Assembly: GCF_024171955.1 (NCBI RefSeq)
Contig: NZ_JAMTCS010000001.1
Span: 310,001-374,000, forward strand
Direction: 5' to 3'
From: Promicromonospora thailandica
Lineage (GTDB): Bacteria > Actinomycetota > Actinomycetes > Actinomycetales > Cellulomonadaceae
Length of the DNA: 64,000 nucleotides
In this document: piece by piece, positions 2,762 through 59,886 of the stretch
Numbering within the stretch: the first letter of the stretch is position 1
Layout: every line of letters begins with the position of its first letter
Translations under genes and position numbers: made by a program
Notes under the pieces: generated by a model
Database searches by the model: none
What the model was told of the DNA's origin: nothing
The model's input: the letters and a program-made list of their open reading frames with translations, nothing else

Positions 2762-3829
2762 GTGACGACCGAGATCGACGTTCCCGATCGACCCGACGGC
2801 TACGCGACCTTCATCGCAGATCTGAAGCGGCGGGTCCGCGGCACCCAGCTTCGCGCCGTCCGCGCGGCGAACACCGAGGTGCTCCGGTTGTACTGGTCGG
2901 TCGGTCGCGACATCCTCGACCGACAACGCGACGAGGGCTGGGGCGCCAAGGTCGTAGGCCAGATATCCGCAGATCTGCGACGCGAGTTTCCTGGTCAGCG
3001 AGGCTGGTCGCCCCGCAGCCTGCACTACATGCGCAAGCTGGCTGACGCGTGGCCGCTGGAGGAGGAATTCGTGCAGCAAGCTGCTGCACACATTCCGTGG
3101 GGGCATGTGATGGTTCTCCTCGACAGGCTCGAGGACCGTGCGGAGCGCGAGTGGTACGCGACCGAGGCAGCCCGATACGGGTGGTCTCGCGCAAGCCTCG
3201 AGTTCGAGATCAAGACCGATCTCAGAGGTCGCCAGGGTTCGGCCCCCTCCAACTTCACCGCGACGCTGGAGGACTTCGACTCCGACCTCGCTCGGCAAGC
3301 AGTCAAGGACCGGTACGTCTTCGAGCACCTGGATCCCCGCGAGCATCGCGCCGAACGTGATCGCGAGCAGGTGCTCACGGACCGCATCCAGGACACACTG
3401 CTGGAGCTGGGCCGAGACATGGCGTTCGTCGGACGCCAGTACCGGATCGAGGTGGGCGGAGACGAGTTCTTCGTCGACCTGCTCTTCTTCCACGTGACGC
3501 AGCTCCGCTACGTCGTCGTCGAGCTCAAGGTCGGCAAGTTCCAGCCTTCCCATATAGGGCAGATCGGCACCTATGTCGCCATGGTCGACGGCTTGGTGCG
3601 AAACCCTCAGGTGCACGCGAAGACGGTGGGGATCCTGCTGTGCACGGAACGCAACGAGGCCACGCTGGACTTCGCTCTCGCCGGGACGGCATCGCCGGTT
3701 GCCGTGGCTCTCTACGAAGGGCTGACCGCCCAGGAGCGAGCCGCGCTGCCGAAGCCCGGCGAGCTGGAGGCCGTCATCGGGGAGGAGATGCGCGCGCACG
3801 CGCCGGAGACCGTCCGACCGGTTCGCTAA
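2762..3829 (+). CDS. YhcG-type DUF1016 PDDEXK nuclease
   Basis: A 355-residue protein starting at GTG 2762. The N-terminal half (about 10-150) has the DUF1016_N pattern, including RGWSPRSLHYMRKLADAWP. The C-terminal half carries a PDDEXK nuclease core: D239 in FFVDLLFF, then E254 and K256 in VVVELKVGKF. The length matches the E. coli YhcG family. Members are often found near restriction-modification genes or mobile DNA, and their biological role is poorly defined. Here the gene stands alone: YedK is upstream and a HAD hydrolase is convergent, with a 4-base overlap. Its wobble positions look less uniformly G/C than its neighbours, which hints at acquisition by transfer. No partner toxin, methylase or methyl-directed gene is present. 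Confidence 0.85.
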   Translation: MTTEIDVPDRPDGYATFIADLKRRVRGTQLRAVRAANTEVLRLYWSVGRDILDRQRDEGWGAKVVGQISADLRREFPGQRGWSPRSLHYMRKLADAWPLEEEFVQQAAAHIPWGHVMVLLDRLEDRAEREWYATEAARYGWSRASLEFEIKTDLRGRQGSAPSNFTATLEDFDSDLARQAVKDRYVFEHLDPREHRAERDREQVLTDRIQDTLLELGRDMAFVGRQYRIEVGGDEFFVDLLFFHVTQLRYVVVELKVGKFQPSHIGQIGTYVAMVDGLVRNPQVHAKTVGILLCTERNEATLDFALAGTASPVAVALYEGLTAQERAALPKPGELEAVIGEEMRAHAPETVRPVR

Positions 3830-4497
3830 CGCGGCAGCCGCAGCTCCGTGAGGGTCCGGATCCGGTGCTCGACCTCCGGGTGCCGGTCCGCGCGGTCGAG
3901 CAGCACGGCGCCCAGACCCGCGTCCAGCGGGCCCAGGTAGTCCTTCTGCACGTCGTCGCCCACCATCAGCACCGTGTCCGGCGCGACGCCGAGGATGTCG
4001 CACGCTCCGGAGTACGCGCGCGGGTCGGGCTTGCCTGCGGGCAGGTCACTCGAGGCCACCACCATGTCGATGTGCCCCGCCAGGCCGGTGCGCTCGAGCT
4101 TCAGGCGTTGGTGCGCCCCGTCGCCGTTCGTGAGCAGGGCGACGACGAGCCCGGCGTCCCGGACCCGCCGCAGGGTCGGTCCGGCGTCGTCGAAGGCCCG
4201 CCACGCCCGCTCGTAGCGGGACAGGTAGCCGGCGAAGAGCTCGTCGGCCTCGGCGTCGGTGGCGTCGGCCCCCAGGAACTCCCGCACGCGAACCCGCCGC
4301 TGGTCCAGGAACGTGATCTCTCGCCGCTGGTAGCGGGCGTACGCCTCCTCGGAGACCGCGCCCCACGCGGCGACCAGCTCGTCCGGGTCGTCGAGGTCCA
4401 GACCCAGCTCGGGGAACCAGTCCAGGAGCGCCGCCCGGGAGGCACCCTCCTGGTCCACGAGCGTGTCGTCGAGATCGAAGAGAACGACTTTCAGCAC
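3826..4497 (-). CDS. HAD-family hydrolase (phosphatase-like)
   Basis: A 223-residue HAD superfamily member of subfamily IA. Motif I is VLFDLDDTLVD, with nucleophile D8 and acid/base D10. Motif II is in LLTNGDG, the motif III lysine is in GKPDPRAYSGA, and motif IV is MVGDDVQKDYLG. A helical cap domain lies between about 20 and 90. Such proteins hydrolyse small phosphometabolites, and the substrate cannot be predicted from sequence. The start is GTG 4497, with a CACGAT hexamer 6 bases upstream. Its 3' end overlaps the YhcG gene by 4 bases on the opposite strand. Confidence 0.9.
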   Translation of the reverse strand: MLKVVLFDLDDTLVDQEGASRAALLDWFPELGLDLDDPDELVAAWGAVSEEAYARYQRREITFLDQRRVRVREFLGADATDAEADELFAGYLSRYERAWRAFDDAGPTLRRVRDAGLVVALLTNGDGAHQRLKLERTGLAGHIDMVVASSDLPAGKPDPRAYSGACDILGVAPDTVLMVGDDVQKDYLGPLDAGLGAVLLDRADRHPEVEHRIRTLTELRLPR

Positions 4498-4661: not shown

Positions 4662-6353
4662 ATGACCGCACGACCATCGCTCCGCCCGTCTCCACGCCTG
4701 CTCACCATGGGGGCGGCCGCCGCGCTCGTCGTCGGGCTGCTCGGCCAGGGCGGCGCCGCCGACGTCGCCTCGGCGTCACCCGCCGCGGCCGAGCGCGTCG
4801 AGTCCACGCACCGGCCAGCCCAGCCGCGCGGGCTCCGGGTCGCGCCCGCGGCCGAGACCGTCACCGCGTACGCCTACGACGGCTACGTCTACCTGGACTC
4901 GCCCGCCTGGCTCGCCGCGTACGGCGAGGGGTACGAGTTCCGCGCCCAGCGCGCCAAGCCCTCCGCCCCCGTGACCCTGACCAAGACGGTCATCCGCGGC
5001 ACGAAGCGCACCACCACGAAGGCGCCCGCGTCGATCGTCGACGGCTTCGACGGGTTCAAGAAGGGCCTCACCGTGCAGGTCGCGACGGCCAAGGGCAAGG
5101 TGCTGGCCAAGGAGACACGCACGTTCTGCCTGGGCGGGTCGGAGCGGCAGCGCGTCGAGCCGACCGGCCGCACCGAGCCGATCTACCCCGAGTTCTGCGG
5201 CGGGAGCTGGTTCACGAAGTCCACCGTGTTCGGTGTCGAGCAAGGGTGGGCCGCGCGGATCGACGGGTACTTCGAGGTGGAGACCACCCAGAAGAACCTC
5301 GTGCTGACCATGAGCATCAGCGAGCCGGTCGCGACGTTCCTCGGCATCCCCGCCGGCAACCGCACGCTGACGCAGAAGGTCACCGTCGAGGACGAGTGCG
5401 AGCTGTTCGAGTGCGGTGAGGTCGGCGAGCAGCTCATGGGTACGGCGTCCGAGGGCTTCAGCACCCAGGCGGAGGACGCCCTCACCGACCGGGCGCAGGG
5501 CCTGCGGACGCAGGGCGGCCACGCCGCCCACGCCGAGGGCTCGGGCTCGGACCGGCGCGTGAACCTGTTCACGCTGCGCGACGGCGGGCAGCACGGCGAC
5601 CACCCGGCGCTCGGCCAGGCGGGGTCGAAGCCCTCGTCGAAGCGGCCTGCCCGCGACACGCTGCCCGACCTCGTCTCGGCGCCCGCGTGGCAGATCGGCG
5701 TGGAGGTCGACGAGGCCGGGACCGACCGCCTCGCCTTCAACGCGAACGAGTGGAACGCGGGACCGGCGCCGCTCGTGGTCGAGGGCTACCGCAAGGGCGC
5801 CAAGGAGGTCATGGACGGCTACCAGTTCTTCTACCGCAACGGCAAGGAGGTGGGCAGCACCCGGGCCGGCACGATGGAGTACCACGCCGCCCCTGAGCAC
5901 GACCACTAGCACTTCCTGGACTTCGCGAAGTACGAGCTGATCAAGCCGGACGGCACGCTGGTGACCACGAGCGGCAAGCAGTCGTGGTGCCTTGCGCCGA
6001 CCGACCCGGTGGACCTGTCGGTGCGCGGAGCGGCCTGGCGCCCGGAGGCCACGGGCCTCGACAGCACGTGCGGCGACCGCTCGGCCCTGTGGATGCGGGA
6101 GGTGCTGCCCGTCGGCTGGGGCGACACCTACAACCAGAGCCAGACGCAGGCGTTCGACCTGACCAAGGTCCCGAACGGCACCTACCGGATCCGGATCACG
6201 GCCAACCCGAACGGCACGCTGCGCGAGGTCACCCGGTCCAACAACATCAGCCTGCGCACGGTCGTCCTGGGCGGCAAGCCGGGCGCGCGCACCGTGAAGG
6301 TGCCGCCGTACGAGGGCGTGGACACCGAGCTGCCGCTCGGCGGCGAGCGCTAG
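4662..6353 (+). pseudogene. Secreted lysyl oxidase-like copper amine oxidase, split by an in-frame TAG
   Basis: One reading frame of 564 codons is interrupted only by TAG at 5907-5909 (codon 416). Residues 1-40 form a signal peptide ending near VASASPAAA. The region from about 335 is a lysyl oxidase domain: LPDLVSAPAWQIGVE, then MEYHAAPEHDH, the stop, then HFLDFAKYEL. This matches the His-X-His-X-His copper site of lysyl oxidases, with the stop at the residue between the second and third histidines, where bacterial members usually have Trp (TGG). Downstream the frame stays intact: GKQSWCL and GDTYNQ fit the Lys and Tyr that form the lysine tyrosylquinone cofactor. One G-to-A change explains the stop. 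The 415-residue product would lack the third copper ligand and the cofactor residues. Amber readthrough or a sequencing error cannot be excluded. Confidence 0.8.
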
Positions 6354-6418: not shown

Positions 6419-7195
6419 ATGACCGCCAGCCCCGCCCCGGCCGTCCCGGCCGGGCGCCACATCACCTGCAGCGTCTCGGACGGCATCGCCGACGTCCGCC
6501 TGGACCGCCCCGACAAGCTCAACGCGCTGTCGCTCGACATGCTCCGGGAGCTGCGGTCGACGGCCCGCCGGCTGCGGCACGAGCCCGGTCTGCGGGCCGT
6601 CGTCGTCTCCGGGAACGGCCGGTCCTTCTGCGCCGGGCTCGACCTGGGCGCGGCCGCACGGAACCCGGCGGCCGTGGCCCGCGCGTTCGTGCCGACGCCG
6701 CGCGGCACCAATCTCTTCCAGGAGGCCTGCTGGGCGTGGCGGCGGCTGCCGGTCCCGGTGATCGCCGCCGTCCACGGGCACGTGATCGGCGCGGGCGTGC
6801 AGATCGCCCTGGCGGCGGACCTGCGGCTCACCACCCCCGACGCCCGCTGGTCGGTCAAGGAGGTCGAGCGCGGTCTGGTGCCCGACATGTCGGGGATCCG
6901 CGCGCTCACCCAGCTCGTCGGCATCGAGACGGCCAAGCGCCTCACCCTCACCGCCGACGAGGTCACGGGAGCCGACGCCGCCCGGCTCGGCCTGGCCGGG
7001 ACCGTCACCGACACGCCGCGCGAGGAGGCGTTCGTCCTCGCCGCACGGATAGCCGAGCACCGGCCTGCGGCCGTCGCCGCCGCGAAGCGCCTGTTCGACC
7101 GGCACTGGTCGGCGGGCGACCTGCGGACCTTCGCGGCCGAGCGCCGCGCGCAGCTCCGGCTGCTGCCGGGCGCGATGCGGAGCCTGAAGCGCTGA
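6419..7195 (+). CDS. Enoyl-CoA hydratase/isomerase (crotonase) family protein
   Basis: 258 residues, the usual length for the family. [16 protein letters not shown] at about 60-75 and [20 protein letters not shown] at about 116-135 give the two oxyanion-hole loops. [17 protein letters not shown] carries the conserved glutamate position of hydratases. The enzyme should act on a 2-enoyl-CoA thioester in the cytosol, as in beta-oxidation or related acyl-CoA metabolism. Crotonase-fold specificity varies widely, so hydratase is the default guess. It stands alone between the lysyl oxidase remnant and the convergent cyclase, with no acyl-CoA dehydrogenase or thiolase nearby. Confidence 0.88.
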
Positions 7196-17998: not shown

Positions 17999-18499
17999 GT
18001 GCCGAACCCCACGCTGCCCCCGTCCGACCTGCACCGGCACGACGGCGACGGCTGGGTCACGTGCGGCGACCACCGGCACTGGGGCCTGTTCGGCGCCGCC
18101 GGCCTGCTGCTCGTGCGCCGGGACGACGACGGCGCGCCCGCCGACCTGGTGCTCCAGCACCGCGCCCTGTGGTCGCACATGGGTGGCACGTGGGGCATCC
18201 CGGGCGGTGCGCTCGCCCCGGACGAGAAGCCCGTGGCGGGTGCCCTGCGGGAGGCCGCCGAGGAGGCCGCGATCGACCCGGCGGCCGTGCACGTCGTCGG
18301 GACGCACGTGCTGGAGCACCCGGCGTGGTCGTACACGACCGTCGTGGCCGACGTCGTCCCCGGGTTCCACGTCGAGCCTCGTGCGGCTGACCCGGAGAGC
18401 CTGGAGGTCCGCTGGGTGAGCCTGCGCGACGTCGGCGGGCTGACCCTGCTGCCCGCGTTCGGCGAGGCGCTCCCCCGGCTGCTCGATCTGCTCGGCTGA
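17999..18499 (+). CDS. NUDIX hydrolase
   Basis: 166 residues. A NUDIX box is present at about 61-83, GGALAPDEKPVAGALREAA then EEAAID, which departs slightly from the consensus GX5EX7REUXEEXGU. The surrounding fold starts LFGAAGLLLVRRDDDG and ends with the EVRWVSLRDVGGL element. These enzymes hydrolyse nucleoside diphosphates linked to another moiety, and the specific substrate is not predictable. GTG 17999 has CAGACT 6 bases upstream. It lies 45 bases after accA and is probably independent. Confidence 0.88.
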   Translation: MPNPTLPPSDLHRHDGDGWVTCGDHRHWGLFGAAGLLLVRRDDDGAPADLVLQHRALWSHMGGTWGIPGGALAPDEKPVAGALREAAEEAAIDPAAVHVVGTHVLEHPAWSYTTVVADVVPGFHVEPRAADPESLEVRWVSLRDVGGLTLLPAFGEALPRLLDLLG

Positions 18500-18626
18500 C
18501 CCGGTCCACGGCGGTCCTTTCGGTTTCTGACCTGCGATAAGACCTGCGTACCGTGACCGGACCGCAACCCGATTTCATCCGCTGAACCGCCCCACGGGCA
18601 CCGCCCACGGCACGAGAATGTGAGAC

Positions 18627-20699
18627 GTGCCCCCTTCTCCTGCCGGCGTCGCTCAGCGTCCCGGTGCACGGCTCCCCGAGATCCACGGCCTCCGGGGGCT
18701 CGCCCTCGTGCTGGTCGTCCTGTTCCACCTGTTCGGCGGCGGACGGGTCTCGGGCGGTGTCGACGTGTTCCTCGTGGTCTCCGGCTTCCTGGTGACCCGC
18801 TCGCTCGTGCGCCGGGCCGACGACGGCTCCCTCCGCCTCGGTGCCGTCTGGGCCCGCAACGCGGCACGTCTGGCGCCGTCCGCCCTCCTGGTGCTGGCCG
18901 CCGTCGCGGGCGGCGCGTGGCTGCTGCTGCCGGAGTCGCGCTGGGAGAGCGTCTGGCGCCAGGTCGTGGCGAGCGCGCTGTACGTCGAGAACTGGGACCT
19001 GGTGGCCAACGAGCTGAGCTACGGCGCGGCCGGGCCGGCGGCGAGCCCGCTGCAGCACTTCTGGTCGCTCTCCGTCCAGGGACAGTTCCTGCTGGTGTGG
19101 CCGGTGCTCGCGCTGCTCGTCGGCGTCCTGGCGCGGCGTGCCCGGGTGCGGGTCCGCACCGTGCTGCTGCCGCTCGTCGCGCTCGCCACGGTGGCGTCGT
19201 TCGCCTACGCGGTGCACCTGACGGCCGTGCAGCAGCCCGTGGCCTACTTCCACACGGCCACCCGGTTCTGGGAGCTCGGCGCGGGCGCGCTGCTCGGGCT
19301 GGTCCCGCTCGGCGTGCCCGGGCGGCTCCGTGCCCTCGGCTCCTGGCTGGGTCTCGGCCTCGTGGTCGCCTCGGGCTTCGTGCTCGACGGCGGCGCCCTG
19401 TTCCCGGGCCCGTGGACGCTCTGGCCGGTCGCCGGGGCCCTGCTGGTGATCGCGGGCGCCGGGACGCCGTCGGCGTGGGGACCGCGCGGCACGCTCGCCC
19501 TCGCCCCGCTGCGGTTCCTCGCCGACATCTCCTACGAGCTGTACCTGTGGCACTGGCCCGTGCTGATCTTCCTCATGGCGCTCACCGACGTGTCCGCCGT
19601 CGGCTGGCGCGAGGCCGCGCTGGTGCTCACCGTCTCCGTGCTCCTGGCCTGGCTCACCCAGCGCCTCGTGGCCCGGCCCGCCGCGCGCGCCGTGCCCCGC
19701 ACGCTCCGGCCGCGCCGCGCCGTGGGCGCGCTCGCCGCCGCCACGGCGGCCACCGCCCTCGTCGTGGGTCCGGTGCTCGCCCTCCAGGCCGAACTCCGGC
19801 AGCAGACGGCGCAGGCCGCCGCGGAGTTCGGCGTCGTGGACACCCTGCACCCCGGCGCGTCGGCGCTCGGCACGGCCGAGATCGTGCCGGCCGCCGACCT
19901 GCGTCCCGCGCTGGACGCCGCGCAGGCCGACAAGGGCCCGTTCTTCACCGACGACCGGTGCGTGCAGGAGCACGGCACCGGCCCAGGCCTGGGGGAGGCG
20001 CTCTGGTGCGACCTGCACGCCCCCGAGCACCCCACCGCGACCGTGCTGCTGGCCGGCGGCTCCCACACGTACCAGTGGGCCGACACGTTCCTGCAGATCG
20101 CCCGGGACAACGACTGGCGGCTCGTGCTCGCGGGCAAGGGCCAGTGCCGGGTCAAGCACGTTCCGGACGCCGAGCACGGCTGCCTGGTGTGGGGCGACAA
20201 CGTGATCGAGCTCGCCACGCAGCTGCGGCCGGACGCGATGGTCGTGGACGGCACCCACACGCACTACGACGGCGAGCTGGAGGACATCCCCGCCGAGCAG
20301 GTCGCCGCGTGGCAGCTCCTCGACCAGGCAGGGGTCCGGCTGATCGGCCTGCGGGACAACCCGCGCGGCGGCAGCGAGCCCCTGGTCCGCGACTGCCTGG
20401 CGGAGCACGGCGTCACCACGTCCCTGTGCGACGTGACCATGTCGCAGGTGTTCCCGCCGGTCTCCCCCGTGCTGACGACGCCCGGCGTGCCCGACTCGAT
20501 GGTGCACGTGGACCTCACCGAGTGGTACTGCCGCGCGGAGGAGGACCGCTGCCCCGCGGTGATCGGCAACGTGCTCGTCTACCGGGACAGCAGCCACCTC
20601 ACCAACACGTTCCTCCGGTCGATGCAGCCGATGCTCGCCGAGGCGCTCGCCGCGCAGGCGCCGTGGCTCTTCCCGGTGGAGCCGGCCAGCCGGCCCTGA
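18627..20699 (+). CDS. OafA/YrhL-type acyltransferase with C-terminal SGNH domain
   Basis: 690 residues. The N-terminal 380 residues form a multi-pass acyltransferase-3 domain starting PEIHGLRGLALVLVVLFHL, with the Arg/His motif and the GGVDVFLVVSGFLVTRSL signature, then about ten membrane segments. The C-terminal part (about 465-690) is an extracytoplasmic SGNH hydrolase-like domain: LLAGGSHTYQWADTFL with the nucleophile serine, and YRDSSHLTNTF with the DxxH pair near the end. Such fusions O-acetylate cell-surface polysaccharides, peptidoglycan or secondary cell-wall glycans. GTG 18627 is used. The nearby rhamnose and LCP genes fit a role in envelope glycan decoration, by inference. Confidence 0.9.
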   Translation: MPPSPAGVAQRPGARLPEIHGLRGLALVLVVLFHLFGGGRVSGGVDVFLVVSGFLVTRSLVRRADDGSLRLGAVWARNAARLAPSALLVLAAVAGGAWLLLPESRWESVWRQVVASALYVENWDLVANELSYGAAGPAASPLQHFWSLSVQGQFLLVWPVLALLVGVLARRARVRVRTVLLPLVALATVASFAYAVHLTAVQQPVAYFHTATRFWELGAGALLGLVPLGVPGRLRALGSWLGLGLVVASGFVLDGGALFPGPWTLWPVAGALLVIAGAGTPSAWGPRGTLALAPLRFLADISYELYLWHWPVLIFLMALTDVSAVGWREAALVLTVSVLLAWLTQRLVARPAARAVPRTLRPRRAVGALAAATAATALVVGPVLALQAELRQQTAQAAAEFGVVDTLHPGASALGTAEIVPAADLRPALDAAQADKGPFFTDDRCVQEHGTGPGLGEALWCDLHAPEHPTATVLLAGGSHTYQWADTFLQIARDNDWRLVLAGKGQCRVKHVPDAEHGCLVWGDNVIELATQLRPDAMVVDGTHTHYDGELEDIPAEQVAAWQLLDQAGVRLIGLRDNPRGGSEPLVRDCLAEHGVTTSLCDVTMSQVFPPVSPVLTTPGVPDSMVHVDLTEWYCRAEEDRCPAVIGNVLVYRDSSHLTNTFLRSMQPMLAEALAAQAPWLFPVEPASRP

Positions 20700-20709
20700 C
20701 TCGCTGCTA

Positions 20710-20715
20710 TAGGGT
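20710..20715 (+). promoter_or_regulatory. TAGGGT -10 hexamer of the gene at 20722
   Basis: TAGGGT, 6 bases, then GTG 20722; leaderless pattern. Confidence 0.5.
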
Positions 20716-20721
20716 CGATTC

Positions 20722-21186
20722 GTGCATATCCGGATCGCTCCCGAAGAGGTGCTGGCCCTGGCGCGGATCGCCGGGCAGGCGCCGCCCGTCATCAGCTCCG
20801 TCGTCGGCGACCGGGACGTGATCCGCGTGGTCGCGGACCTGCGCCGCCTGGAGACGCTGCCCGGCCCGCTCCGCCTGGCCGTGAAGATCGCGCCGATCGT
20901 GCGGGCCGACGTGCGCCTGGCCACGTTCGAGCGCGGCGTCGCCACGCTCGCGGTCGAGGTGAACGCCGCGGGCCTGCCGGCCCACCGCCTGCTCAGCCTG
21001 GCCGCCGCGCCGATCGAGCAGGAGGTCGCCAAGCAGGGCCTGCCGCCGGGGGTCGTCGACGTGCAGCCCGACGCGCGGATCGCCGTCGACGTCGAGCGCC
21101 TCCTGGAGGCCAAGGTGCCCGGCCTGACCGTCACGGGCGCGCGCGTCGAGGACGGTCAGATCGTCCTCGACGCGTCCGTCGCGTAG
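20722..21186 (+). CDS. Conserved-looking cytosolic protein of unknown function
   Basis: 154 residues from GTG 20722, directly preceded by a leaderless -10 hexamer. No signal peptide, membrane segment or known motif. The pattern looks like alternating short strands and helices (LAVKIAPIVRADVRLATFE, VATLAVEVNAAGLPAHRLL, PDARIAVDVERLL), with repeated blocks that might belong to a lipid- or ligand-binding beta-rich fold. It lies between the acyltransferase and the convergent quinone reductase, with an 10-base gap to the latter. I do not recognise the family. Confidence 0.75.
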   Translation: MHIRIAPEEVLALARIAGQAPPVISSVVGDRDVIRVVADLRRLETLPGPLRLAVKIAPIVRADVRLATFERGVATLAVEVNAAGLPAHRLLSLAAAPIEQEVAKQGLPPGVVDVQPDARIAVDVERLLEAKVPGLTVTGARVEDGQIVLDASVA

Positions 21187-43490: not shown

Positions 43491-45013
<1,523 letters not shown>

Positions 45014-51957: not shown

Positions 51958-52712
51958 TGACCGCCACACTCGAGGCCCCGGCCCCCGCCGCGGGCGAGAT
52001 CCCGTCGTTCACCGTCACCCTGCGGGTCCGCCGGTTCAACCCGGAGGTGTCCGACGAGGCCACCTGGCAGGACTTCACCGTCGAGGCGCACGGCACCGAC
52101 CGCATCCTCGACGCGCTGCACAAGATCAAGTGGGACGAGGACGGCTCGCTCACGTTCCGCCGGTCCTGTGCGCACGGCGTGTGCGGCTCGGACGCCATGC
52201 GGATCAACGGCCGCAACCGCCTGGCCTGCAAGACGCTCCTGAAGGACGTCAACCCCGACAAGCCGATCACGGTCGAGCCCATCAAGGGCCTGCCGGTCGT
52301 GAAGGACCTCGTGGTCGACATGGAGCCGTTCTTCGCCTCCTACCGCGAGATCATGCCGTTCCTCATCACCACGGGGAACGAGCCGTCCAAGGAGCGCTAC
52401 CAGTCCCCCGAGGACCGCGCGCGGTTCGACGACACCACCAAGTGCATCCTGTGCGCCGCCTGCACGTCGTCCTGCCCGGTGTTCTGGACGGACGGCCAGT
52501 ACTTCGGCCCGGCCGCCATCGTCAACGCGCACCGGTTCATCTTCGACAGCCGCGACGAGGGTGGCTCGCAGCGCCTGGAGATCCTCAACGACAAGGAGGG
52601 CGTGTGGCGCTGCCGCACGACCTTCAACTGCACCGAGGCCTGCCCCCGCGGCATCGAGGTCACGAAGGCGATCCAGGAGGTCAAGCGCGCGATGATCACC
52701 CGCGCCTTCTGA
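51957..52712 (+). CDS. sdhB: Succinate dehydrogenase iron-sulfur subunit
   Basis: 251 residues. 2Fe-2S ligands: RRSCAHGVCGSDAMRING and the downstream Cys of NRLAC, with the Cys-to-Asp change (GSD) seen in several SdhB proteins. 4Fe-4S: CILCAACTSSCPVFW. 3Fe-4S: CRTTFNCTEACPRGI. It passes electrons from SdhA to the membrane anchor. Last gene of the operon, followed by a very long hairpin. Confidence 0.96.
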   Translation: MTATLEAPAPAAGEIPSFTVTLRVRRFNPEVSDEATWQDFTVEAHGTDRILDALHKIKWDEDGSLTFRRSCAHGVCGSDAMRINGRNRLACKTLLKDVNPDKPITVEPIKGLPVVKDLVVDMEPFFASYREIMPFLITTGNEPSKERYQSPEDRARFDDTTKCILCAACTSSCPVFWTDGQYFGPAAIVNAHRFIFDSRDEGGSQRLEILNDKEGVWRCRTTFNCTEACPRGIEVTKAIQEVKRAMITRAF

Positions 52713-52718
52713 CCCTCT

Positions 52719-52827
52719 CCGCCGAAGTAGAACCAGGGCGAAGTAGAACTGCAGCGAGATAGAACCCCAGCGCGAGCACGGTTCTATCTCGCTGCAGTTC
52801 TACTTCGCCCTGGTTCTATCTCGGCGG
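52719..52827. repeat. Family C long hairpin with internal 16-bp tandem repeats, at convergent sdhB/YihY ends
   Basis: 48-base arms at 52719-52766 and 52780-52827, 46 of 48 pairing, 13-base loop. Each arm is itself built from degenerate 16-bp repeats: GAAGTAGAACCAGGGC, GAAGTAGAACTGCAGC and GAGATAGAACCCCAGC at 52724-52771. The right arm includes the stop codon of the YihY gene (52816-52818). The likely effect is transcription termination in both directions; the origin of the repeat structure is unknown. Confidence 0.8.
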
Positions 52828-53694
52828 GGCCGGGGGGTCTGCCATCCAGGCGCTCGTCATCAGCAGCACGCGGGCCAGGAGGTTGACCAGCACGAGGATC
52901 GTGACGACCACCGCGAAGGACGCCAGCAGCGCGTTGCGGGCCGCGGCCCCGGTCACCAGCTCCGTACCCAGGTAGCGCAGCGCGCCGGCGACGACGCCGA
53001 CCACGAGCGATCCGATCACGAGGTCCCGCGGCACGGGCCGCACGTTCCCCACCCAGCGCACGACGGCGGCCACGACCGCCGCGTCCAGCAGCAGGGTCAC
53101 GAGCGCGCCGCCGGCCCGCACCGCGAACGCCACCGCGCCGCCGGCCAGGCCCAGCGACTCCAGCACCCACGGCACGGCCACCGACACCAGCACGCTCGCC
53201 CCCGCCGTGACCAGCACGCCGACGCCCAGGAGCACGAAGCCGAGGAGCTGCCGCAGCCGCTCCGTGGCGATGTTCCCGGGGGTGTCCGTCTCGCCGAACA
53301 TCGCCCGCACCGAGCTGCGCAGCGCGCCCATGAAGTTGGTCGCGGACCACAGCAGCACCAGCGCCGCGACGACCGAGGTCCAGCTCAGGCCCGTGGAGAT
53401 CACCAGGTCGGCCGGTGACAGCACCCCGCCGTCGCCCGTGTCCACCAGCCCGGGCACCCACGTGTCGATCTGGTCCAACACCGCCACCCGCAGGTCGGCG
53501 TCCCCGCCGAGCACGCGCACGAACGTCGTGTACCCGATCGCCAGGGACGCGAAGAGCGAGAAGAGCGCCGCATAGGCCATGCCGCCGCTGAGCACGGCGC
53601 CGTTCGCCGTGCCGAACCGGTCCAGCGCGCGGGCGGCGCGCGTCCCCTGCCAGCGCTCCCAGGCCGCCCTGCCGAGCTCGATCAGCCGCTTCAT
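52816..53694 (-). CDS. YihY/virulence factor BrkB family membrane protein
   Basis: 292 residues from ATG 53694, supported by TAGGCT 7 bases upstream; GTG 53724 is an alternative. About six membrane segments, with LSGGMAYAALFSLFASLAIGY near the N-terminus and LLWSATNFMGALRSSVRAMFGE as the family-conserved loop. The family was once called ribonuclease BN by error, and its real function is unclear. The C-terminus overlaps the family C hairpin. Confidence 0.88.
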   Translation of the reverse strand: MKRLIELGRAAWERWQGTRAARALDRFGTANGAVLSGGMAYAALFSLFASLAIGYTTFVRVLGGDADLRVAVLDQIDTWVPGLVDTGDGGVLSPADLVISTGLSWTSVVAALVLLWSATNFMGALRSSVRAMFGETDTPGNIATERLRQLLGFVLLGVGVLVTAGASVLVSVAVPWVLESLGLAGGAVAFAVRAGGALVTLLLDAAVVAAVVRWVGNVRPVPRDLVIGSLVVGVVAGALRYLGTELVTGAAARNALLASFAVVVTILVLVNLLARVLLMTSAWMADPPAPPR

Positions 53695-58134: not shown

Positions 58135-58733
58135 CAGGCACCCCCGCGGGTCGGTGCCAGGTGCTCCAGCGCGTCGCGGAGCTGGGCCCGGGCCCGGTGG
58201 ATCCGCGAGCGCACCGTGCCGAGCTTCACGCCCAGCGTCACGGCAATCTCCTCGTAGCTCAGGCCCTCGATGTCGCACAGCACGACGGCGGCGCGGTACT
58301 CGGGACGCAGGGCGTCGAGCGCCTTCTGCACGTCCTGGTCGAGGTTGGCGTGCTCGTACCCGCGCTCCGGCCGGCCGAAGTCGCCGGTGTCGGCGACGTG
58401 GCCGTCGTCGTCGCCCATCGCCTCCATGCGGATGCGCTTCTTGCGGCGCGCGCCGTCGAGGAACAGGTTGGTGGTGATGCGGTGCAGCCAGCCCTCGAAC
58501 GTGCCCGGCGTGTAGCTGGACAGGGACCGGAACACCCGGATGAACGTCTCCTGCGTGAGGTCCTCCGCGTCCTGCTTGTTGCCCGTCAGGCGGTAGGCGA
58601 GGCGGTAGACGCGCGCGGAGTGCTCCCGCACGATCTCCTCCCACGTGGGCGGCTGCCAGGGCATGTCGGCGGCGCCGGTCCCGGTGGGGGCCGGCGCGCC
58701 TGCGTCTGCTGCGCGAGTACTCACAGAAGTCAT
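58134..58733 (-). CDS. sigE: ECF sigma factor, SigE-like
   Basis: 199 residues from ATG 58733, which has GAGAGGA 5 bases upstream; starts at 58802 and 58664 are alternatives. Region 2: [26 protein letters not shown]. Region 4: [25 protein letters not shown] as a helix-turn-helix. Directs RNA polymerase to envelope-stress promoters under control of the downstream anti-sigma factor. The sigE, anti-sigma, htrA, tatB order is that of Rv1221-Rv1224 in Mycobacterium tuberculosis. Confidence 0.95.
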
Positions 58734-58821
58734 CGTCCTCTCAACGCACGTGTCGGCCCAGTCGTTCCCACGGGCTGTACCCTGACGCCGCACGTGACGC
58801 ACACATCTGGACAGGTCCAGC

Positions 58822-58826
58822 GGAGG
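58822..58826 (+). promoter_or_regulatory. Shine-Dalgarno before an ATC start
   Basis: The purine run GGAGGAAG begins at 58822 and lies about 5 bases before ATC 58832. No ATG, GTG or TTG lies at a fitting distance in the correct frame. Confidence 0.5.
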
Positions 58827-58831
58827 AAGCC

Positions 58832-59482
58832 ATCAGCACAGCGGAGCCGTCCGGCCACGGCAGGGTCGCGGCCTGGGTCTACAGCGAGGCCTTCGTCCCC
58901 GAGGACGAGGTGCTCCTGCGCGCCCGCGAGCGGGCCTCGGAGCTCGGAACGCCGGCCGTGCTGCCGGGCGTGGGCGCGGTGCTGCGGGTGCTGGCGGCGG
59001 CCACGGGCGCGCGTGCGGTGGTGGAGGTCGGCACGGGGGCCGGCGTCGCGGCGCTCTGGCTGCTGCGGGGCATGCCGCTGGACGGCCAGCTCACGACCAT
59101 CGACCGCGAGGTGGAGCACCAGCGGGCCGCCCGCGTCGCGTTCGCCGAGGACGGCGTGGCGCCGCAGCGCACCCGGATCATCCCCGGGCGGCCCGGGGAC
59201 GTGCTGCCCCGGCTGGCCGACGGCGCGTACGACCTGGTGCTCGTGGCGAGCGACCCGCTGGCCTACCCCGAGTACGTGGACGAGGCCCTGCGGCTGCTGC
59301 GGCCGGGCGGTGTGCTGGCCGTCGACGGCGCGCTGCTGCGCGACCGGGTGGCGGACCCGGCCCGCCGCGACGAGCTCACCACCGTGGTGCGGGAGGTGGG
59401 CCGGACGCTGCGCAACGACGAACGGGTACTGCCTGCCATGCTGCCGAGCGGGGACGGGCTGCTGCTGGCCGTCCGGCGCTGA
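58832..59482 (+). CDS. O-methyltransferase (SAM-dependent), Rv1220c-like, probable ATC start
   Basis: 216 residues if started at ATC 58832, 190 from the first usual start, GTG 58910. The segment before GTG 58910, [16 protein letters not shown], is the conserved beginning of this family, so the shorter start would cut the fold. A good Shine-Dalgarno precedes ATC. The SAM-binding motif is [16 protein letters not shown], followed by [18 protein letters not shown] and [17 protein letters not shown]. It diverges from sigE as Rv1220c does in mycobacteria. Substrate unknown. Confidence 0.85.
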
Positions 59483-59560
59483 ACCGCGCCCGGGCCTGCT
59501 CGCGCGGCGGACCGCCGGGGCACGAGACGGCGGCGGGTCTGGTCGCGGGACTACGGGTAT

Positions 59561-59584
59561 CGCCGTGGGTGTCGCCGTGGGTGT
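59561..59584. repeat. 12-bp tandem duplication
   Basis: CGCCGTGGGTGT at 59561-59572 and 59573-59584, in the gap between the methyltransferase and the convergent DUF3117 gene. Slippage origin is likely. No other feature is seen in this gap. Confidence 0.7.
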
Positions 59585-59599
59585 CTCAGGACCGGGAGA

Positions 59600-59767
59600 T
59601 CAGGCGACGACGGTCTGGAGAGCGTCGCCGAGCTCGCTCGCCTCGGTCGCGTTGAGCTCGACGACGAGCCGGCCGCCGCCCTCGAGCGGTACGCGCATGA
59701 CGATGCCGCGCCCCTCCTTGGTGACCTCGAGCGGTCCGTCACCCGTCCGCGGCTTCATCGCAGCCAT
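59600..59767 (-). CDS. DUF3117 family small protein
   Basis: 55 residues from ATG 59767, with GGGAGAG upstream as the ribosome binding site. MAAMKPRTGDGPLEVTKEGR, then a short beta-rich stretch RLVVELNATEASELGDALQ, matches the conserved actinobacterial DUF3117 (Rv1211 in M. tuberculosis). Function unknown; almost invariant in size. It sits in the same neighbourhood as in mycobacteria, near folP and sigE. Confidence 0.92.
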   Translation of the reverse strand: MAAMKPRTGDGPLEVTKEGRGIVMRVPLEGGGRLVVELNATEASELGDALQTVVA

Positions 59768-59886
59768 GTGTGGCTCTCCCATTCCGTTGTCCGGTGTGTA
59801 GCAGCATTCATGTTCCCGGCGAACGCCGAGGGCACGGACCCATTCTAGTTCAACTGCCGCCCCTTGATTTCCACCTGCGGCGCGCG

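Follow-up and report, generated by a model that had tools for sequence, protein, structure and literature searches.

The question raised by this locus is whether an amber codon placed inside the copper motif of a bacterial lysyl oxidase marks a broken gene, a regulated one or a mistake in the assembly. The window (the whole stretch of 64,000 nucleotides of Promicromonospora thailandica DNA that was analysed) carries a forward-strand frame that the original prediction had described as an otherwise intact lysyl oxidase interrupted by a single TAG, for which recent inactivation, programmed amber readthrough and a base-call error were offered as alternatives. Judged from sequence, we consider it probable that this is a young nonsense pseudogene and that the genome's only lysyl oxidase gene is broken. 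The features on which the argument turns are the following.

4662..6353, + strand: lysyl oxidase gene with one in-frame TAG and a C-terminal PF01186 domain; the sole match to the family in the genome
5907..5909, + strand: TAG codon 416; TGG (Trp) in all 11 same-genus relatives that have the gene
5898..5912, + strand: H-x-H-stop-H copper-ligand motif, residues 413, 415 and 417 (from translation and the LOXL2 alignment)
5976..5978, + strand: Lys439, likely cofactor lysine (alignment with LOXL2)
6129..6131, + strand: Tyr490, likely cofactor tyrosine (alignment with LOXL2)

Translation bears out the frame as it was first described: positions 4662 to 6353 are open over 415 residues, meet TAG at codon 416 (5907 to 5909), continue for a further 147 residues and end in a terminal TAG, with the internal stop falling between the second and third histidines of the H-x-H-x-H copper motif (EHDH-stop-HFLDF). 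Because the 564-codon frame shares 67-73% identity with intact relatives across nearly its entire length, it is one gene and not a chance opening; by eye, its N-terminal stretch looks like a secretion signal. The read-through frame matches the Pfam family Lysyl_oxidase (PF01186; curated cut-off 20.4 bits) at 31.5 bits over residues 405-532, and the 147-residue part after the stop still does so at 29.5 bits when searched by itself, while the 415-residue part before the stop finds no Pfam family with an E value of 0.1 or lower. Among solved structures the read-through frame finds weakly LOXL2 (5ze3_A, E 0.00064) and no other match up to E 10. In this alignment H413, H415 and H417 (HDH-stop-H) fall on the H-x-H-x-H of 5ze3_A, K439 (GKQSWCL) on the lysine of HKASFCL and Y490 (GDTY) on the tyrosine of WDMY, and we take that lysine and tyrosine of LOXL2 to be its cofactor pair. 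The full-length end carrying the likely cofactor residues, as originally claimed, is present: K439 and Y490 both lie downstream of the stop and are invariant in all 12 aligned rows. All three copper histidines are encoded in the DNA and are split by the stop, so that the translated product would hold two of the three.

An excerpt of PMC4448552 states that the histidine core and the Lys/Tyr pair (K320 and Y355 in human LOX) are required for catalysis, that H-x-H-x-H, Lys and Tyr are conserved in prokaryotic copies and that the first animal histidine (H289) is missing from bacterial ones; in the part of PMC6452851 consulted, an archaeal lysyl oxidase was active after refolding. The gene in the window shares with prokaryotic lysyl oxidases the C-terminal LOX domain, the H-x-H-x-H motif, the lysine and the tyrosine. 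However, here one stop inside the copper motif cuts the frame.

The gene is single-copy in a genome-wide search of the 5.38 Mb draft genome (24 contigs, 99.82% complete), and it is found in 12 of 13 genomes of the genus, the window's own included; the exception, G001, gave no lysyl oxidase match genome-wide. All 11 other genus copies read TGG at the position of codon 416 and have no stop before their own end, which confirms the originally proposed one-base difference between TGG and the stop. Within the family the gene occurs in 15 of 221 genomes, counting the window's own, and the window's copy alone has an internal stop; within the order, an even sample of 396 genomes gave 20 PF01186 matches in 16 genomes, a single one of which, again the window's own, has an internal stop. 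These family and order counts cover the matched stretch only, and the decay of one order copy (L112, below) escaped them. The idea that stops are habitual in this gene across the lineage was considered and is rejected on these counts (1 of 20 and 1 of 15, both the window's own). When 22 family and order loci were read at the motif (21 distinct ones, since L111 is a second record of the gene in L081 and was omitted; extra H-x-H-x-H stretches outside the oxidase motif in L082 and L100 were disregarded), 20 of them showed H-x-H-x-H; the codon matching the stop is TGG (W) in 17 and TTC (F) in 3, and none of these 20 has a stop there. The remaining locus, L112 (G549:C1:3335603-3335761 and the stretch before it), has no such motif and shows several stops and frame changes against the copy L116 of its genus-mate; it is a truly decayed lysyl oxidase copy in the same order. 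Three genomes of the order carry two lysyl oxidase genes each, on opposite strands and about 7 to 19 kb apart (L102 and L113 in G281, L098 and L114 in G333, L100 and L115 in G346).

The original prediction had proposed that simple decay would show itself as additional frameshifts and lost codon conservation. No frameshift or other damage beyond the one TAG codon was found in the window's copy. For the part downstream of the stop, dN/dS is 0.309 in pairs that include the window's copy and 0.352 in the other pairs (bootstrap 95% range of the difference, -0.152 to 0.052); the corresponding values for the 5' part are 0.431 and 0.429, and third-position G+C downstream of the stop is 0.986. The dN/dS values, the third-position G+C and the lack of frameshifts give advanced decay no support. 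Pointing the other way, the window's copy departs at 5 of 96 post-stop columns that are invariant in the 11 relatives (relatives, leave-one-out, 0 to 3). Upstream of the stop it departs at 3 of 53 invariant columns within the oxidase part (relatives again 0 to 3) and at 9 of 174 when all upstream columns are taken (relatives 1 to 19). The copy's terminal branch is the longest in the oxidase tree, and since its synonymous distance is also the highest (mean dS 0.534; others 0.382 to 0.482), this longer branch reflects, as far as can be judged, divergence and not relaxation. Because the part after the stop is without clear decay, the stop must, on these comparisons, be either young on its branch or a base-call error and not real. 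An unaccelerated dN/dS is expected with a very young stop, and equally with a base-call error or with readthrough; likewise, the absence of further damage fits a base-call error or tolerated readthrough equally well. The signal of purifying selection in the 3' part averages the entire length of the branch and does not demonstrate present-day translation.

The gene may be whole in the living strain, as it is in the relatives, with the TAG a product of base calling or assembly. This is an unlikely explanation but one that keeps a real minority share of the probability, given that a single codon interrupts a frame that is open in all 11 relatives, that no other damage accompanies it and that the sequence is a draft in 24 contigs. 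Against it stands the state of the rest of the window. When the window was compared with the open frames of three relatives (G007 to about 36.6 kb, G009 from 3.8 to 55.2 kb, G010 from 0.1 to 60.8 kb), stops or frame changes were flagged in 18 of 111 rows. Three of the 18 are the oxidase, one per relative and with one stop each (place 5907 being printed for G010). Of the other 15, ten were judged by overlap or fusion of cleanly matching genes and five were examined singly. Among these five, two flagged stops (53743 and 52816) coincide with the end of the window's own frame, the row at 44955 is antisense to a clean gene and the row at 52130-53530 overlaps, in another frame, a gene that by eye is iron-sulphur-protein-like. 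The fifth lies at 58161-59845, where a long open reading frame of G010 matches frame 3 up to 59513 and frame 2 from 59600, and G+C at the three codon positions is an unusual 0.73, 0.73 and 0.77, pointing to a non-gene or a frame difference. The oxidase is the only gene that can be called broken mid-gene in the compared part of the window; the assembly therefore does not look error-rich, although one wrong base may still be present. Outside the flagged rows, at 18500-20720, about 2 kb lie between conserved genes (17999-18496 and 20722-21183) that are adjacent in G007 and G010, so that an insertion into this genome is probable.

Programmed or regulated amber readthrough, giving a small amount of full-length enzyme, was the most novel of the alternatives originally offered, and we now regard it as very improbable. 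It can draw on a post-stop frame that is intact and was under purifying selection, and on the base that follows the stop, which is C: the portion of PMC5289835 consulted cites +4C as raising read-through in yeast, puts the read-through of UAG between that of UGA and that of UAA and, for E. coli, cites tRNA-Gln as misreading UAG. Slight leakage at this stop is possible, as at any UAG. However, the stop is present in none of the 11 relatives and is the only internal stop among the 20 matches from the 396 order genomes, the clean absence of the gene from one species of the genus also counts against a regulated stop, and the selection on the 3' part, averaged over the whole branch, is no proof of current translation. 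An amber suppressor tRNA had been proposed as something to look for; none of the 51 tRNA genes found by an RF00005 search followed by ARAGORN has a CTA anticodon, in a genome whose 99.82% completeness means that one tRNA gene could still be missing. Release factor 1 (RF1) was found in the same genome above its cut-off. Among 47 other tabulated intervals TAG is the first in-frame stop in nine (two ends being unsure), and C follows it in eight of these nine, so that UAG-C is an ordinary terminator here; the oxidase's own terminal stop is a TAG too. As for structure, the 90 bases 3' of the stop fold no better than shuffled sequences (z -0.24), with a z of -1.07 for the matching 90-base stretch in the relative L003 and of 0.96 for a stretch straddling the stop. 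More doubtful still, and in our estimation close to negligible, is the idea of the amber codon as a species-specific switch, with UAG misread at a low level and a little full-length enzyme made; if it were true, lysyl oxidase output would follow translational accuracy. A Gly-Cys-Val tRNA cluster is present twice in the genome, about 1.5 kb apart (L019, L020, L035 and L036; G000:C9:211804-213552).

As improbable as programmed readthrough is an adaptive stop, by which the 415-residue product would serve a function through its N-terminal region. This region is conserved in the genus, with a dN/dS as in the other pairs. Yet the short product matches no Pfam family and is made by none of the 11 relatives, and the stop lies inside the oxidase domain and not at its border, leaving a broken half domain.

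Recent inactivation is thus the best supported of the three alternatives originally named. The gene would have encoded a probably secreted, copper- and quinone-dependent lysyl oxidase that was under selection for most of its history, until a recent nonsense change hit the codon for the Trp lying between copper histidines two and three. Translation would end before codon 416, and the product would miss the third copper ligand and the cofactor Lys and Tyr, so that no lysyl oxidase would be made. Three things here are inferred: the living strain does carry this base, the shortened product has no activity and the loss is tolerated.

Nonsense-mutation pseudogenes are an ordinary and known kind in bacteria. 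This gene has in common with them a single stop, intact relatives and a species of the genus in which the gene is missing, and it differs from them only in the striking position of its stop. Stop-bearing genes that are still read through are also known and have been termed pseudo-pseudogenes; the present gene resembles these in that its frame stays intact beyond an in-frame stop, but there is no sign here of translation past the stop. Searches found no literature pairing Promicromonospora with lysyl oxidase and, by title and the beginning of the abstract, none on the topic of pseudogenes or premature stops in bacterial lysyl oxidases. The original prediction was accurate and acute about the sequence; the event itself looks ordinary and not like a newly regulated stop. 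Its reach beyond this genome is small, in that a single lysyl oxidase gene is identified as broken.

The one genome of the genus that lacks the gene bears on whether such a loss can be tolerated. The genes on either side of the oxidase in the window are as follows.

3826..4497, - strand: left neighbour, a HAD-like hydrolase by eye; the oxidase-less G001 has it too
6419..7195, + strand: right neighbour, enoyl-CoA hydratase-like by eye; G001 has it too

Both neighbours lie on one contig in G001, 86 bases apart as against 1921 in the window. The G001 assembly consists of 290 contigs, and a 44-residue hydratase-like piece is found at the edge of another of them. We regard it as settled, on the genome sequences, that the gene can be lost within the genus, unless this contig of G001 is misjoined. 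A tree of the two neighbours, midpoint-rooted and built from two short proteins (hydratase only for four genomes; three genomes of the neighbouring genus, within whose loci neither protein lies, are omitted), joins G001 to the window's genome with support 0.995 and places G001 on the longest branch, a grouping that could reflect long-branch attraction. The oxidase tree pairs the window's copy with that of G012 (support 0.990). HAD identity between the window and G001 is 79.6%, the lowest of eight (the seven others, 80.8-82.8%), and hydratase identity is 86.0%, mid-range (others 74.0-87.3%); measured by identity alone, G001 does not stand nearer to the window's genome than the others do. The lysyl oxidase gene looks dispensable, and this would follow from its clean absence in G001 and from the badly decayed copy in the order, not from kinship between G001 and the window's genome. 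These observations suggest that part of the genus is losing the gene, and the intact, stopped and absent states form a small natural comparison for the role of the little-studied bacterial lysyl oxidases.
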